From an uncultured Lachnospiraceae bacterium (GTDB lineage: Bacteria > Bacillota > Clostridia > Lachnospirales > Lachnospiraceae): a DNA stretch of 64,000 bases. The stretch is taken from contig CATKXR010000009.1 of NCBI GenBank assembly GCA_949840805.1, positions 1-64,000 of the forward strand, read 5' to 3'. This document shows positions 43,963 through 58,355 of the stretch, in pieces. The notes below the pieces were generated by a model. The model saw only the letters and a list, made by a program, of their open reading frames with translations, did no database searches and was not told the origin of the DNA. How positions within the stretch are numbered: position 1 is the first letter of the stretch; each line of letters opens with the position of its first letter. Position numbers and translations under genes: made by a program.

Positions 43963-43983
43963 AAACAATATGAATTGACAATC

Positions 43984-44096
43984 GTTCTTCAGGGCAGGGT
44001 GAGATTCCCTACCGGCGGTACAGTCCGCGAACCGCGCAGGCGGCTGATCCGGTGAGATTCCGGAACCGACAGTATAGTCTGGATGAGAGAAGAATT
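43984..44096 (+). ncRNA. FMN riboswitch (RFN element)
   Basis: Conserved RFN blocks appear in order: TTCTTCAGGGCAGGGTGAGA, CCCTACCGGCGGTA, AGTCCGCGA, GATCCGGTGAGATTCCGGAA, CCGACAGTATAGTCTGGATG and GAGAAGAA, the last closing the P1 stem with TTCTTC. It senses FMN. A terminator hairpin lies 45 bases further on and the riboflavin transporter gene follows, so FMN binding should stop transcription before ribU. Confidence 0.97.
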
Positions 44097-44141
44097 GTGC
44101 GGATGTCGAAACTGACTGTAGTATTTTCAGCGAACGATCTG

Positions 44142-44182
44142 TGAACGCCCTGGATGGATTAGAGCATCCGGGGCGTTTTTTG
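44142..44182 (+). terminator. Riboswitch-controlled terminator
   Basis: AACGCCC-t-GGATG and CATCC-g-GGGCGTT form a long hairpin followed by TTTTTT, between the RFN element and ribU. It is the likely expression platform of the FMN riboswitch. Confidence 0.9.
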
Positions 44183-44242
44183 GCACATTCCTTAGGGAAA
44201 CCGGAGGCGAAGGAGAACGGAATATTTAAGGAGGAGAGAAAA

Positions 44243-44875
44243 ATGAGAGAGAATCGGTTATTGTCTACAAGAAATGTTGCGGTGATGGGGATGTTCGGCG
44301 CGTTGGCTGCAGTGCTTATGCTGTTTGAAATCCCTCTTCCTTTTCTTGCGCCTAGTTTTTACGGATTGGATTTAAGCGAAGTGCCGATTTTGGTGGGAAC
44401 TTTTGCGTTGGGTCCTGTGGCAGGCGTGGTGATGGAAGTGGTGAAGATTCTGATTAAGCTGGTGTTAAAGCCTACTTCCACAGGATTTGTAGGAGAGTTT
44501 GCAAATCTGGTATTTGGCTGCTCAATGGTGGTTCCTGCCGGGATGATCTATCAAATATACAAAACAAAGAAGGGAGCTATGGCCGCAATGGCAGCGGGAA
44601 CGGTAATCATGTCCCTGATCGGGATTGCCGGGAACGCTTTGGTTATGATTCCTTTTTATGCAAATTTTATGCCGCTTGACAATATTTTGGCAGCAGGAGC
44701 GGCGATCAATCCGGCTGTGGGAAATGTGTGGACGTTTGCATTGTTTTGTGTAGGACCCTTTAATGTGGTCAAAGGATGTATAGTCTCGTTGATCACGGCA
44801 GTGGTTTATAAGAGAATCAGCAGTGTGATACATAGTGTCGGCACTGAGAGAAGGAAAAGAAGAGTTCATATTTAA
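44243..44875 (+). CDS. ribU: Riboflavin ECF transporter substrate component
   Basis: The 210-residue membrane protein has six helices typical of RibU S components: TRNVAVMGMFGALAAVLMLF, FYGLDLSEVPILVGTFALGP, GPFNVVKGCIVSLI. It binds riboflavin and works with a shared EcfAA'T module encoded elsewhere. The FMN riboswitch upstream supports the substrate. Start 44243 has AAGGAGGAG; the frame open from 44141 would begin inside the terminator hairpin. Confidence 0.95.
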   Translation: MRENRLLSTRNVAVMGMFGALAAVLMLFEIPLPFLAPSFYGLDLSEVPILVGTFALGPVAGVVMEVVKILIKLVLKPTSTGFVGEFANLVFGCSMVVPAGMIYQIYKTKKGAMAAMAAGTVIMSLIGIAGNALVMIPFYANFMPLDNILAAGAAINPAVGNVWTFALFCVGPFNVVKGCIVSLITAVVYKRISSVIHSVGTERRKRRVHI

Positions 44876-55526: not shown

Positions 55527-56603
55527 TCAGCGTGTATGGACAGAACGAAAATGTTCGTAAATCCATTTTCCGCATTCGCTCAATTCATCTTTGCTCCACC
55601 CGGATACTTTGCTGCAGCCGGGAGAGATTACGCTGCTGGTTTCGGCCTTATTGGCAAGATTCCAACAGCAATAGCTGATCTGACAGTCGTCCAGTAACCG
55701 GAGCCACAGGGCAGACTGTTGGAAGTCATTGCGTCCGTTTCCGGAGGCATCACAAGTGCCGAACTCGCTGACAAATACAGGCAGTCCATGCTCCACGCAG
55801 GCTGAAAGGCGCTGGCGCAGCCAGTCAGTATGAGTGGCGGCATAAAAATGAAGTGCATACAGAAGATTGTCATATTCCAGAGGAGAAGCAGCAGCCTGGT
55901 CGATATCCTGGCTCCAGGTGGGAGTTCCTACGATGATAACAGCATCGCTGTCATTGGCCCGGATCACGGGAATGACTTCTCTGGCATAGTTTTTAATGCT
56001 GTCCCAGGAGACAGAAGAATTCGGTTCATTACAGATCTCGTACAGCACATTGGTATGGTCTTTGTACAATGCGGACATTTCCTGAAAGAATTGCAGCGCC
56101 TCTTCTTTGTGGATATTAGGGTCACGGTCATTTAAGACATGCCAGTCAATGATTACATACATTCCAAGTTCCGTTGCATAGTCAACTCCCTTTTGGACAA
56201 GGGATTTAAGCTCATCCTGGCTGCCGCCGCTGCAGTAGCCGTTATATTCCTCTGTGTACATGGCAAGGCGGATGCAGTTGGTGTTCCAGTCATCCCGAAG
56301 AGTGCGGAAAGTGTCTAAAGTGATATATTGGGGGAACCAGGCAATCCCGTGGGTGGACATCCCCCGAAGCTGATATTTTTCACCGTGGCAGTCATACAGG
56401 CTGGGACCGTTTACATGAAGCTTTCCATGGACAGCAGCAGGGGTGTCGGGTACGGCAGTAAAAGAATTTTCAGATACTGCTTTTGGATCGGTAGTGCCAT
56501 GAGCTGCCAGCGCAGCCGGTATGTTGCCGGGAAAAACATTCACGGTCAACAGAACGGCCATTATAAGTCCGGTAAGTAATGAACGGTATTTTTTAACAAG
56601 CAT
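55527..56603 (-). CDS. Secreted glycoside hydrolase family 5 glycanase
   Basis: The 358-residue product has a signal peptide (1-34, ending AALAA). The GH5 barrel has the acid/base Glu193 in YEICNEPNSS and the nucleophile Glu280 in FVSEFGTCD, plus RGMSTHGIAWFPQY and VIIDWHVLNDRDPN. It is likely an endo-beta-glucanase or mannanase acting outside the cell; no binding module is attached. AGGAGG precedes the start. A 200-base leader with its own promoter and a terminator/antiterminator lies upstream, so expression is probably controlled by transcription attenuation. Confidence 0.93.
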   Translation of the reverse strand: MLVKKYRSLLTGLIMAVLLTVNVFPGNIPAALAAHGTTDPKAVSENSFTAVPDTPAAVHGKLHVNGPSLYDCHGEKYQLRGMSTHGIAWFPQYITLDTFRTLRDDWNTNCIRLAMYTEEYNGYCSGGSQDELKSLVQKGVDYATELGMYVIIDWHVLNDRDPNIHKEEALQFFQEMSALYKDHTNVLYEICNEPNSSVSWDSIKNYAREVIPVIRANDSDAVIIVGTPTWSQDIDQAAASPLEYDNLLYALHFYAATHTDWLRQRLSACVEHGLPVFVSEFGTCDASGNGRNDFQQSALWLRLLDDCQISYCCWNLANKAETSSVISPGCSKVSGWSKDELSECGKWIYEHFRSVHTR

Positions 56604-56674
56604 GAAAGATTCCTCCTATGAAAAAAATCATATGGCCCATAAGTATGGAATGTTTTTGGTTTCGTAAAACTGCT

Positions 56675-56806
56675 AAAAAGAAAGAACTGCTTTTCCCCCA
56701 TAGAAAGCAGTCCCTCCGGTCACGATCAAAAACCGTTACACTATAAAGCTTTGCTTGGTATCCCCATACCAGATAAAATGTAATCGGCACTGAGTGCGTC
56801 TTACTA
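56675..56806 (-). ncRNA. Riboswitch-like leader of the GH5 gene (orphan class)
   Basis: On the minus strand, downstream of a strong promoter, the RNA has a hairpin GGTAT-GGGG-ATACC (56770-56757). A closing helix AAGCA (56756-56752) with TGCTT (56709-56705) follows, enclosing GCAAAGC and CGGT/ACCG segments. A terminator hairpin ACTGCTTT (56711-56704) with AAAGCAGT (56693-56686) comes next, then TTCTTTCTTTTT. TGCTT is shared by both helices, so they exclude each other, which is the classic riboswitch layout. The GCAAAGC box recalls c-di-GMP-I aptamers, but the rest does not fit that class. Confidence 0.55.
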
Positions 56807-56812
56807 ATGTAG

Positions 56813-56841
56813 AATATACCATTTTTTGAAGAAATAGTCAA
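56813..56841 (-). promoter_or_regulatory. Promoter of the GH5 leader
   Basis: On the minus strand, TTGACT (56841-56836) and TATATT (56818-56813) are 17 bases apart, placing the transcript start near 56806. Confidence 0.8.
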
Positions 56842-56933: not shown

Positions 56934-58355
56934 ATGGACGAATTTTCCAAATCTCTTTCAGAAAATGTGGAACGGCTGAAACAAGTGCTGCAGGCAGATA
57001 AGAATTTTGATATTGTATATAGAACCTTTACCATAGCCGGAAGGAAGGCGGCCCTGTTCTTTGTAGACGGATTTACCAAGGACGAAGTGTTGTTGAAAAT
57101 GATGCAGTCCTGGTGGTCGGTCAAAGAGGAGGACATGCCGGAGGACGCCTATGGTTTTTCTAAGAAATATCTGCCTTATGGGGAGATCGGGCTGGTAAAA
57201 AAAGAAGAGGATATGCTGGTACAGTTATTAACGGGTATATCCTGCCTGTTTATTGACGGTTTTGAGGTGTGCATGACCATTGACTGCCGGACATATCCTG
57301 CCAGAAGCGTGGGAGAGCCGGAAAAGGATAAGGTCATGCGGGGATCACGGGACGGATTTGTGGAGACTCTGATCTTCAATACGGCATTGATCCGGCGGAG
57401 AATTCGTGATCCGAGACTGACCATGGAGATTCTGACGGCAGGGGAAAGCTCCCACACGGATATTGCCGTGTGCTATATGGACGGAAGGCAGGATCAGAAT
57501 TTGCTGGATAAAATCAAAGGCAGGATTCAGAATTTGAAGGTAGACGCCCTGACCATGAATCAGGAAAGCCTGGCAGAATGCATTTACCCTCATAAATGGT
57601 ACAATCCGTTTCCGAAGTTTAAGTTTTCCGAACGTCCGGATACGGCGGCGGCATGTATTTTGGAGGGTAATATAGTGATTCTTGTGGACAACTCTCCTGC
57701 AGCCATGATTCTGCCTTCTTCGGTATTTGATGTCATAGAGGAGGCAGATGATTACTATTTTCCGCCCATTACAGGAACCTATCTGCGTCTTTCCCGGATG
57801 GCGACGGCTATTTTATGTCTGCTGTTTACGCCTACCTGGCTGCTTTTGATGATGAATCCCGGCATAATCCCGCCCTGGCTGGAATTCATCCGTATTGAGG
57901 ATCCCTCTTTTGTGCCGCTGATTTATCAGCTTTTGATTTTGGAATTTGCCATTGACGGACTGCGGCTGGCTGCTATCAATACGCCGAATATGCTGACCAC
58001 GCCTTTAAGCGTTATTGCCGGTATTGTGTTAGGTGAATACTCGGTAAAGTCAGGATGGTTTAACAGTGAGACCATGCTTTATATGGCTTTTGTGACAGTG
58101 GCTAATTACAGCCAGTCCAGTTTTGAACTGGGTTATGCGCTGAAATTTATGAGAGTCATGATCTTAATATTGACGGCCATATTTAACGTGTGGGGATATG
58201 GAGCAGGGATAATCATCTCATTATGTGCCGTCATATTTAACAGGACTATCGCGGGAAAGAGCTATATCTACCCATTGATCCCGTTTAAATGGGGTGAATT
58301 AAAAAAGCGTTTCCTGCGGGGGCGGCTTCCGCTTTCGGGAGAAGGAAGGAGTTAG
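56934..58355 (+). CDS. GerA/SpoVAF-type spore germination protein
   Basis: The 473-residue protein has a soluble N-terminal domain (1-280; MDEFSKSLSENVERLKQVL, GITGTYLRLSR-like ITGTYLRLSRMATAIL). Five or so membrane helices follow, including NTPNMLTTPLSVIAGIVLGE. The lone-gene context and N-terminal form fit SpoVAF better than a GerAA receptor subunit, because no gerAB or gerAC follows. It is expected in the inner spore membrane. GGAGGGAG precedes start 56934; it is divergent from the GH5 leader. Confidence 0.9.
   Translation: MDEFSKSLSENVERLKQVLQADKNFDIVYRTFTIAGRKAALFFVDGFTKDEVLLKMMQSWWSVKEEDMPEDAYGFSKKYLPYGEIGLVKKEEDMLVQLLTGISCLFIDGFEVCMTIDCRTYPARSVGEPEKDKVMRGSRDGFVETLIFNTALIRRRIRDPRLTMEILTAGESSHTDIAVCYMDGRQDQNLLDKIKGRIQNLKVDALTMNQESLAECIYPHKWYNPFPKFKFSERPDTAAACILEGNIVILVDNSPAAMILPSSVFDVIEEADDYYFPPITGTYLRLSRMATAILCLLFTPTWLLLMMNPGIIPPWLEFIRIEDPSFVPLIYQLLILEFAIDGLRLAAINTPNMLTTPLSVIAGIVLGEYSVKSGWFNSETMLYMAFVTVANYSQSSFELGYALKFMRVMILILTAIFNVWGYGAGIIISLCAVIFNRTIAGKSYIYPLIPFKWGELKKRFLRGRLPLSGEGRS

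Follow-up and report, generated by a model that had tools for sequence, protein, structure and literature searches.

Organization of the locus

The window, by which we mean the whole stretch of 64 000 nucleotides that was analyzed, contains a structured RNA element on the minus strand, between a glycanase gene and a spore germination gene. Its sequence and comparative features are those expected of a small RNA gene that stands by itself, and do not suggest a riboswitch dedicated to the glycanase. The features of the locus are listed here in order of position.

55527-56603, minus strand: GH5 (cellulase family) gene, downstream of the RNA (Pfam PF00150, E 1.2e-64)
56675-56806, minus strand: small RNA gene of about 130 nt, predicted from sequence (R1 and R2 model matches, fold z -3.1)
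56682-56715, minus strand: intrinsic terminator hairpin, with a conserved loop U(A/G)UGGGG at 56702-56696 (covariation)
56719-56739, minus strand: P3 region GUAACGGUUUUUGAUCGUGAC, highly conserved in sequence (conservation)
56756-56771, minus strand: P2 hairpin, loop UGGGGA (covariation)
56780-56804, minus strand: P1 hairpin GTAA-GAC-GCAC..GTGC-CGA-TTAC at the 5' end of the RNA (pairing counts in chosen loci)
56813-56841, minus strand: RNA promoter of the sigma-70 type, TTGACT, 17-base spacer, TATATT (10 of 12 matches, TG preceding the -10)
56937-58355, plus strand: GerA-family spore germination protein, divergent neighbour (Pfam PF03323, E 4.5e-136)

The 5' end of the RNA (56806-56804) was inferred from the promoter and the 3' end was placed at the T tract (near 56675). 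The divergent neighbour at 56937-58355 is presumably SpoVAF or SpoVAF-like; its best match in NCBIfam is GerXA, far below the cut-off for that family. The GH5 protein appears, by eye, to be secreted. As a separate observation, the GerA-family gene contains one in-frame stop in four of the 24 genomes of the window's genus (G005:C12, G023:C39, G006:C32, and G020:C33). Elsewhere in the window, an ordinary FMN riboswitch (43981-44098, plus strand, 117.9 bits) precedes a membrane protein frame at 44141-44875, which resembles a riboflavin transporter.

The original prediction placed a near-consensus promoter ahead of a roughly 200-base minus-strand leader. The promoter is confirmed, and the same hexamers with the 17-base spacer are found in 62 of 64 loci, as judged from sequence, which is the pattern of an RNA with a promoter of its own (17 was the first spacer length tried, ahead of 18, 16, and 19; the exceptions are L021 and L050). 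Taken alone, a match of this kind is at chance level, with five promoter-like sites in a scan of 2501 bases compared with 4.8 in shuffled sequence, and the terminator rule of the same scan did not pick up the terminator hairpin of the RNA. It is conservation, in the recurrence of hexamers and spacer and in the covariation of the hairpin, and not any single sequence, that indicates both elements are real. What stands of the predicted leader is a structured minus-strand RNA with a promoter; its extent, about 130 nt, and its independence of the GH5 gene point to a different kind of element. Directly upstream of the -35 hexamer, TTGCACAA or a similar sequence recurs by eye in many loci (in the window at 56855-56848, minus strand); on the other strand it could belong to the promoter of the germination gene.

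The genes beside the RNA differ in how constantly they accompany it. The divergent GerA-family gene is present in 59 of 63 distinct loci, and in the available DNA of the other four (L008, L009, L018, and L042) no GerA-family gene was found next to the RNA. Downstream, up to a distance of 700 bases, the closest of the tested genes is a same-strand YitT in 17 loci, GH5 in 10, malic enzyme in two, and a TcdA-like gene and OGG in one each. It is convergent in 14 of the 63 (TcdA-like in 10, malic enzyme in three, rpiB in one), and none of the tested genes was found within this distance in a further 18. This count drops L050, which is weak and lacks the promoter, and the duplicates L056 and L075; the TcdA-like label denotes a ThiF-family match together with an NCBIfam match below its cut-off. 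The original prediction had called for conserved copies ahead of related genes; copies exist, but the genes behind them vary, with GH5 in only 10 of 63 loci. In four of 160 loci, CATAGGAGTTGAGTC lies beside a hairpin downstream of the RNA (L002:1418-1432, L016:1677-1691, L107:694-708, and L108:1375-1389) and together they may be a small mobile repeat; the window has no occurrence of CATAGGAGTTGAGTC, even when one mismatch is allowed.

Structure and conservation of the RNA

Two covariance models were used to follow the element, R1 being the first model (22 sequences) and R2 a core model (50 sequences). The copy in the window, which was included in building both, matches R1 at 56774-56677 with 111 bits and R2 at 56752-56677 with 89 bits. 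The 129-nt RNA has a predicted folding energy of -39.2 kcal/mol compared with -28.85 for shuffled sequences (z -3.1), and none of 200 shuffles was as stable; for the 208-nt leader the z value is -2.2 and five of 200 shuffles were as stable. From 5' to 3', the full form consists of P1 (of the type GTRAG..CTTRC), P2 with the loop UGGGGA, the conserved P3, and the terminator with the loop UGUGGGG.

Homologous sequences had been proposed as a source of covariation, and they provide it for two of the four parts. In P2, both sides changed in all five pairs of alignment A4 and in two of five pairs of A3; in the terminator, this was so for eight of 13 pairs in A5 and 11 of 13 in A4. The hairpin that had been read as a terminator is therefore real by covariation, and an intrinsic terminator is a conserved part of the element, as far as sequence and covariation can indicate. 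P1 gives slight covariation, one pair in each of two sets. Its pairing is intact in 64 of 64 cells in eight chosen loci of the GH5 type and in 102 of 108 cells in 12 chosen others, a count that omitted five of 25 aligned sequences and all forms of odd length. P3 has almost none, with both-side changes in zero of five pairs in A5 and one of six in A4, and its hairpin is not proven, although the stretch itself, GTRACGG-TTTT-GATCGTGAC, is conserved across loci. Alignments A3 and A5 were made with MAFFT, and A4 is larger and model-fitted, and so biased towards the model. Across A4, 159 cells have both sides changed compared with 34.5 in shuffles, and none of 500 shuffles was as high, a lenient control in that related sequences can exceed shuffles without any structure. 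Slid versions of the same alignment, which keep relatedness, reach at most 0.148 compared with 0.434 for the true alignment.

While the stems of P2 and the terminator covary, their UGGGG loops are unchanged, and CT[GA]TGGGG is present in 58 of 63 loci. Loops of the GGG type also recur in P1 of several genera. There are departures from the full form: L010 no longer has GGGG in its P2 loop, P1 is absent in L044 and L046-L049, and both P1 and P2 are absent in L042 and L043, where the RNA starts just before P3. In the latter two, the R1 match 5' of P3 overlaps the promoter and their P2 is spurious. A reading of the element as a gene for a small protein was rejected, since length changes of one base between conserved blocks, seen by eye, break the frames. 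As a side observation, the minimum free energy fold of the window copy offers UUACA, the 3' arm of P1, a second partner in the UGUAA that opens P3 (56783-56736, minus strand), a predicted alternative to both the P1 and the P3 hairpins.

Distribution and inheritance

Where present in the genomes searched with the models, the RNA is a single-copy element. Of 145 genomes compared at the DNA level, 22 had matches with E <= 2.6e-8, including the window's own. With R1, 20 of 397 genomes of the family had a match at E up to 0.01, one copy each; 18 of these are strong besides the window's own (19 in all), and the weakest, L050, is doubtful. Within the window's genus, 22 of 24 genomes have one copy that R2 recognizes strongly, at an E of 1.4e-13 or better. 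The two exceptions, G009 (E 0.53 at best) and G007 (no match), both have the germination gene, but other genes occupy the place beside it. Among 295 genomes of the order, strong matches were the window's own and three from one genus of the same family. Five more genomes gave matches at E 4.8e-5 to 0.009 that aligned mostly in the terminator, and the weak matches at this level (L090-L095) were judged to be due to chance on account of that alignment, with L092 set apart by its P3 letters. This match (L092:1501-1585, minus strand, 28 bits), from another family of the order, has the P3 letters GGTTTTGGATCGTG in common but not the terminator loop, and is due to chance or is a distant relative. A narrow exact pattern, searched in a collection with one genome per species (84 980 species), was present in at least 35 contigs. 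The carriers include [Clostridium] asparagiforme, citroniae, and clostridioforme as well as Lacrimispora, Enterocloster, and Hungatella; the last three form spores, and several of them come from the gut.

The germination gene offers a way to trace the history of the RNA. A quick tree of this neighbour was made from 57 carriers and 20 non-carriers, the latter with long branches, and G007, G009, G006, and G020 were omitted, their fragments being too short. All 57 carriers and a single non-carrier, G082, fall in one clade with a support of 100, and two changes suffice to explain the pattern of carriers compared with 18.0 in shuffles. There is no copy at the germination-gene site of G082. Furthermore, 20 non-carrier loci, out of 22 retrieved from 30 genomes, hold no credible diverged copy next to the germination gene, the best reaching 21 bits. 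The plain reading of these sequences would be a single gain followed by no fewer than three losses in all. The RNA is dispensable, because G007 and G009 lack a strong copy anywhere and G082 lacks one at this site.

Relationship to riboswitches and to the GH5 gene

According to the original prediction, the fold matches no known aptamer that was considered and has only GCAAAGC in common with the c-di-GMP-I class, and both statements hold. A search of the whole window against Rfam at the gathering level found nothing in the leader and one unrelated hit, the FMN riboswitch described above. For 601 bases at the leader, nothing credible and no match to c-di-GMP-I appeared at E up to 10, and eight relatives searched at E up to 5 gave just FMN riboswitch, tRNA, and sub-threshold matches, again without c-di-GMP-I. 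The RNA matches no family in Rfam. The letters GCAAAGC, which it has in common with c-di-GMP-I, are present in the window copy and its close relatives; here, in contrast to that class, they sit in a linker of variable sequence and length, and no constant gene follows.

The proposed switch fares less well. The segment TGCTT (56709-56705) can pair, by its letters, with AAGCA (56756-56752) instead of entering the terminator, and with G-U pairs allowed this is possible in eight of 10 GH5-linked loci, which are close relatives, compared with 1.4 expected from shuffled linkers. Beyond these relatives it is not conserved, occurring in eight of 46 loci compared with 3.1 expected (L042, L043, L050, L107, and L108 were left out), and L008 and L009, both GH5-linked, break it. 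Like GCAAAGC, the antiterminator arm lies in the variable linker. The compact fold said to be enclosed by this pairing is not conserved either, since of 63 loci just 10 have its CGGT/ACCG pairing in the strict form and 20 in a looser one. Thus a conserved, mutually exclusive pairing was not found, and neither was a consistent gene downstream on the same strand. An RNA cannot lead the convergent TcdA-like, malic enzyme, and rpiB neighbours, which argues against a riboswitch dedicated to GH5, and the claim of a complete terminator/antiterminator switch fails.

One part of the proposed link to GH5 is retained. The distance from the terminator to the GH5 start is 27-78 bases in eight of the 10 GH5-linked loci, 245 in L002, and 302 in L004, and in none of the 10 does the gap between the RNA and GH5 contain a promoter-like site above 8 of 12 matches or better than shuffles. 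In the window, the best such site (8 of 12) was matched by 168 of 300 shuffles. Because the gap lacks a promoter-like site of its own, the GH5 gene may depend in this lineage on transcription that leaks past the terminator of the RNA. Other genes behind the RNA differ in this respect. A promoter-like site with 10-11 of 12 matches precedes YitT in 16 of 17 loci (the remaining one, L054, having a truncated gap) and one with 10 of 12 precedes both same-strand malic enzyme genes; most of these sites were matched by 0-6 of 300 shuffles, and by 20 of 300 in L019. For L036 and L063, the YitT site (11 of 12) comes from an earlier scan, and the gaps of L036, L054, and L063 were shortened by start placement in the shuffle scan. 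With promoter-like sites of their own, YitT and malic enzyme look independent of the RNA. The gap before OGG in L021 has no visible promoter.

Possible partners and targets

Loops that are kept while their stems change are likely to have a partner, which could be a C-rich RNA or a protein. Hfq was found in none of 40 genomes of the family, compared with five of 14 control genomes, and an Hfq-dependent sRNA was rejected on this basis. Of the genomes tested for CsrA, 20 of 42 carriers and 11 of 25 non-carriers gave a score above the cut-off, so the idea of a CsrA sponge was set aside, CsrA being excluded as a general partner. With regard to RNA targets, no complementarity above chance was detected between the RNA and the start of the germination-gene mRNA across 57 loci, using a crude measure (means of -44.7 for matched, -44.8 for mismatched, and -45.3 for shuffled pairs).

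Comparison with characterized RNAs is instructive. Clostridioides difficile has two sporulation sRNAs, SpoX and SpoY, that target spo0A and whose discovery and testing involved Hfq (PMC10267692). They resemble the present RNA as short clostridial sRNAs, and SpoX has an intrinsic terminator and both a short main form and a longer one, where here a longer form would arise from read-through into GH5 (PMC10267692). The C. difficile RNAs are linked to Hfq, whereas Hfq was not found here. As for their target, at spo0A starts placed by a rough rule we found a run of four C in just one of 22. Runs of at least three C were present in seven of the 22; the scan covered 22 of 23 main loci, leaving out L139, with doubtful placements in L132, L137, L144, L153, and L154. 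No match to Spo0A was found in the window's own genome.

Protein-sequestering RNAs of the CsrB/RsmZ type are similar in combining covarying hairpins with constant G-rich loops. The loops of such RNAs are of the ANGGA type. Those described here are UGGGG, and CsrA was not found in 22 of 42 carriers.

No description of the present RNA was found among the literature matches listed, and passages of PMC8040213, PMC5171806, and PMC10267692 contain nothing tied to this locus. The first of these reports candidate structured RNAs of human microbiomes; its main text has no occurrence of spore, germination, Enterocloster, sRNA, or Lachno-, and its supplements may list the present RNA unnamed (PMC8040213).

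Proposed role and alternative explanations

Taken together, these observations suggest the following model, which as a whole we consider somewhat probable. A sigma-A-type promoter would produce a short, self-terminating, structured RNA. A single origin is probable for this RNA, within one Lachnospiraceae clade and next to a GerA-family gene with which it would have been inherited. The RNA itself would be the product: comparison of loci shows its independence of the downstream gene, and we infer that it is transcribed alone. Its conserved G-rich loops may pair with C-rich stretches of target RNAs or bind a protein, acting in trans and without Hfq. In the window's lineage, the GH5 gene behind the terminator is probably transcribed by read-through, as suggested by its missing promoter. 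The likeliest function is that of a trans-acting, Hfq-independent sRNA.

Different explanations can be offered for some of the same data. A ligand-sensing leader that controls GH5 by exchange between terminator and antiterminator would account for a terminator lying directly upstream of GH5, for the gap without a visible promoter in 10 of 10 loci, and for the AAGCA/TGCTT pairing that is possible in eight of 10. Yet elsewhere this RNA precedes genes of unrelated kinds or has a convergent neighbour, eight of 46 other loci contain the antiterminator arm (3.1 expected), no aptamer in Rfam matches, and shorter forms exist without P1 or without P1 and P2, all of which makes a riboswitch very improbable. 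What is left of the proposed control of GH5 is the absence of a visible promoter before that gene. Nor is it probable, though the chance is less slight, that conservation reflects a terminator and promoter region used by the divergent germination gene or by a convergent neighbour, the RNA being a by-product. As this explanation would suggest, 59 of 63 loci have the germination gene adjoining the RNA, and eight, with the duplicates L056 and L075 set aside, have a convergent tcdA-like gene whose end is 3-63 bases away from that of the match; against it, the loop letters and P3 are more conserved than a terminator requires, and the RNA is kept where the germination gene was not found adjacent (L008, L009, L018, and L042).

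A protein-binding decoy of CsrB/RsmZ-like design, in which GGGG-loop hairpins capture an RNA-binding protein other than CsrA, merits more weight, while still being unlikely. The constancy of the UGGGG loops on covarying stems fits a decoy, as do the GGG-type loops in P1 of several genera, but CsrA, in just 20 of 42 carriers, is not a general partner, and two loci retain only one such loop.

Significance

A trans-acting sRNA of the kind favoured here would be a conserved, single-copy gene with a clear structure and a clean promoter, and would provide a direct way into RNA regulation in this group of bacteria, Hfq having been found in none of the 40 family genomes tested. A more specific version can be put forward as a tentative proposal, which in its full form is doubtful: an RNA acquired at the founding of a Lachnospiraceae clade, working without Hfq or CsrA through repeated UGGGG loops, tied to germination or dormancy, and with a leaky terminator that has captured a GH5 gene. 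The locus may also illustrate the capture of a gene by an sRNA terminator lying ahead of it.
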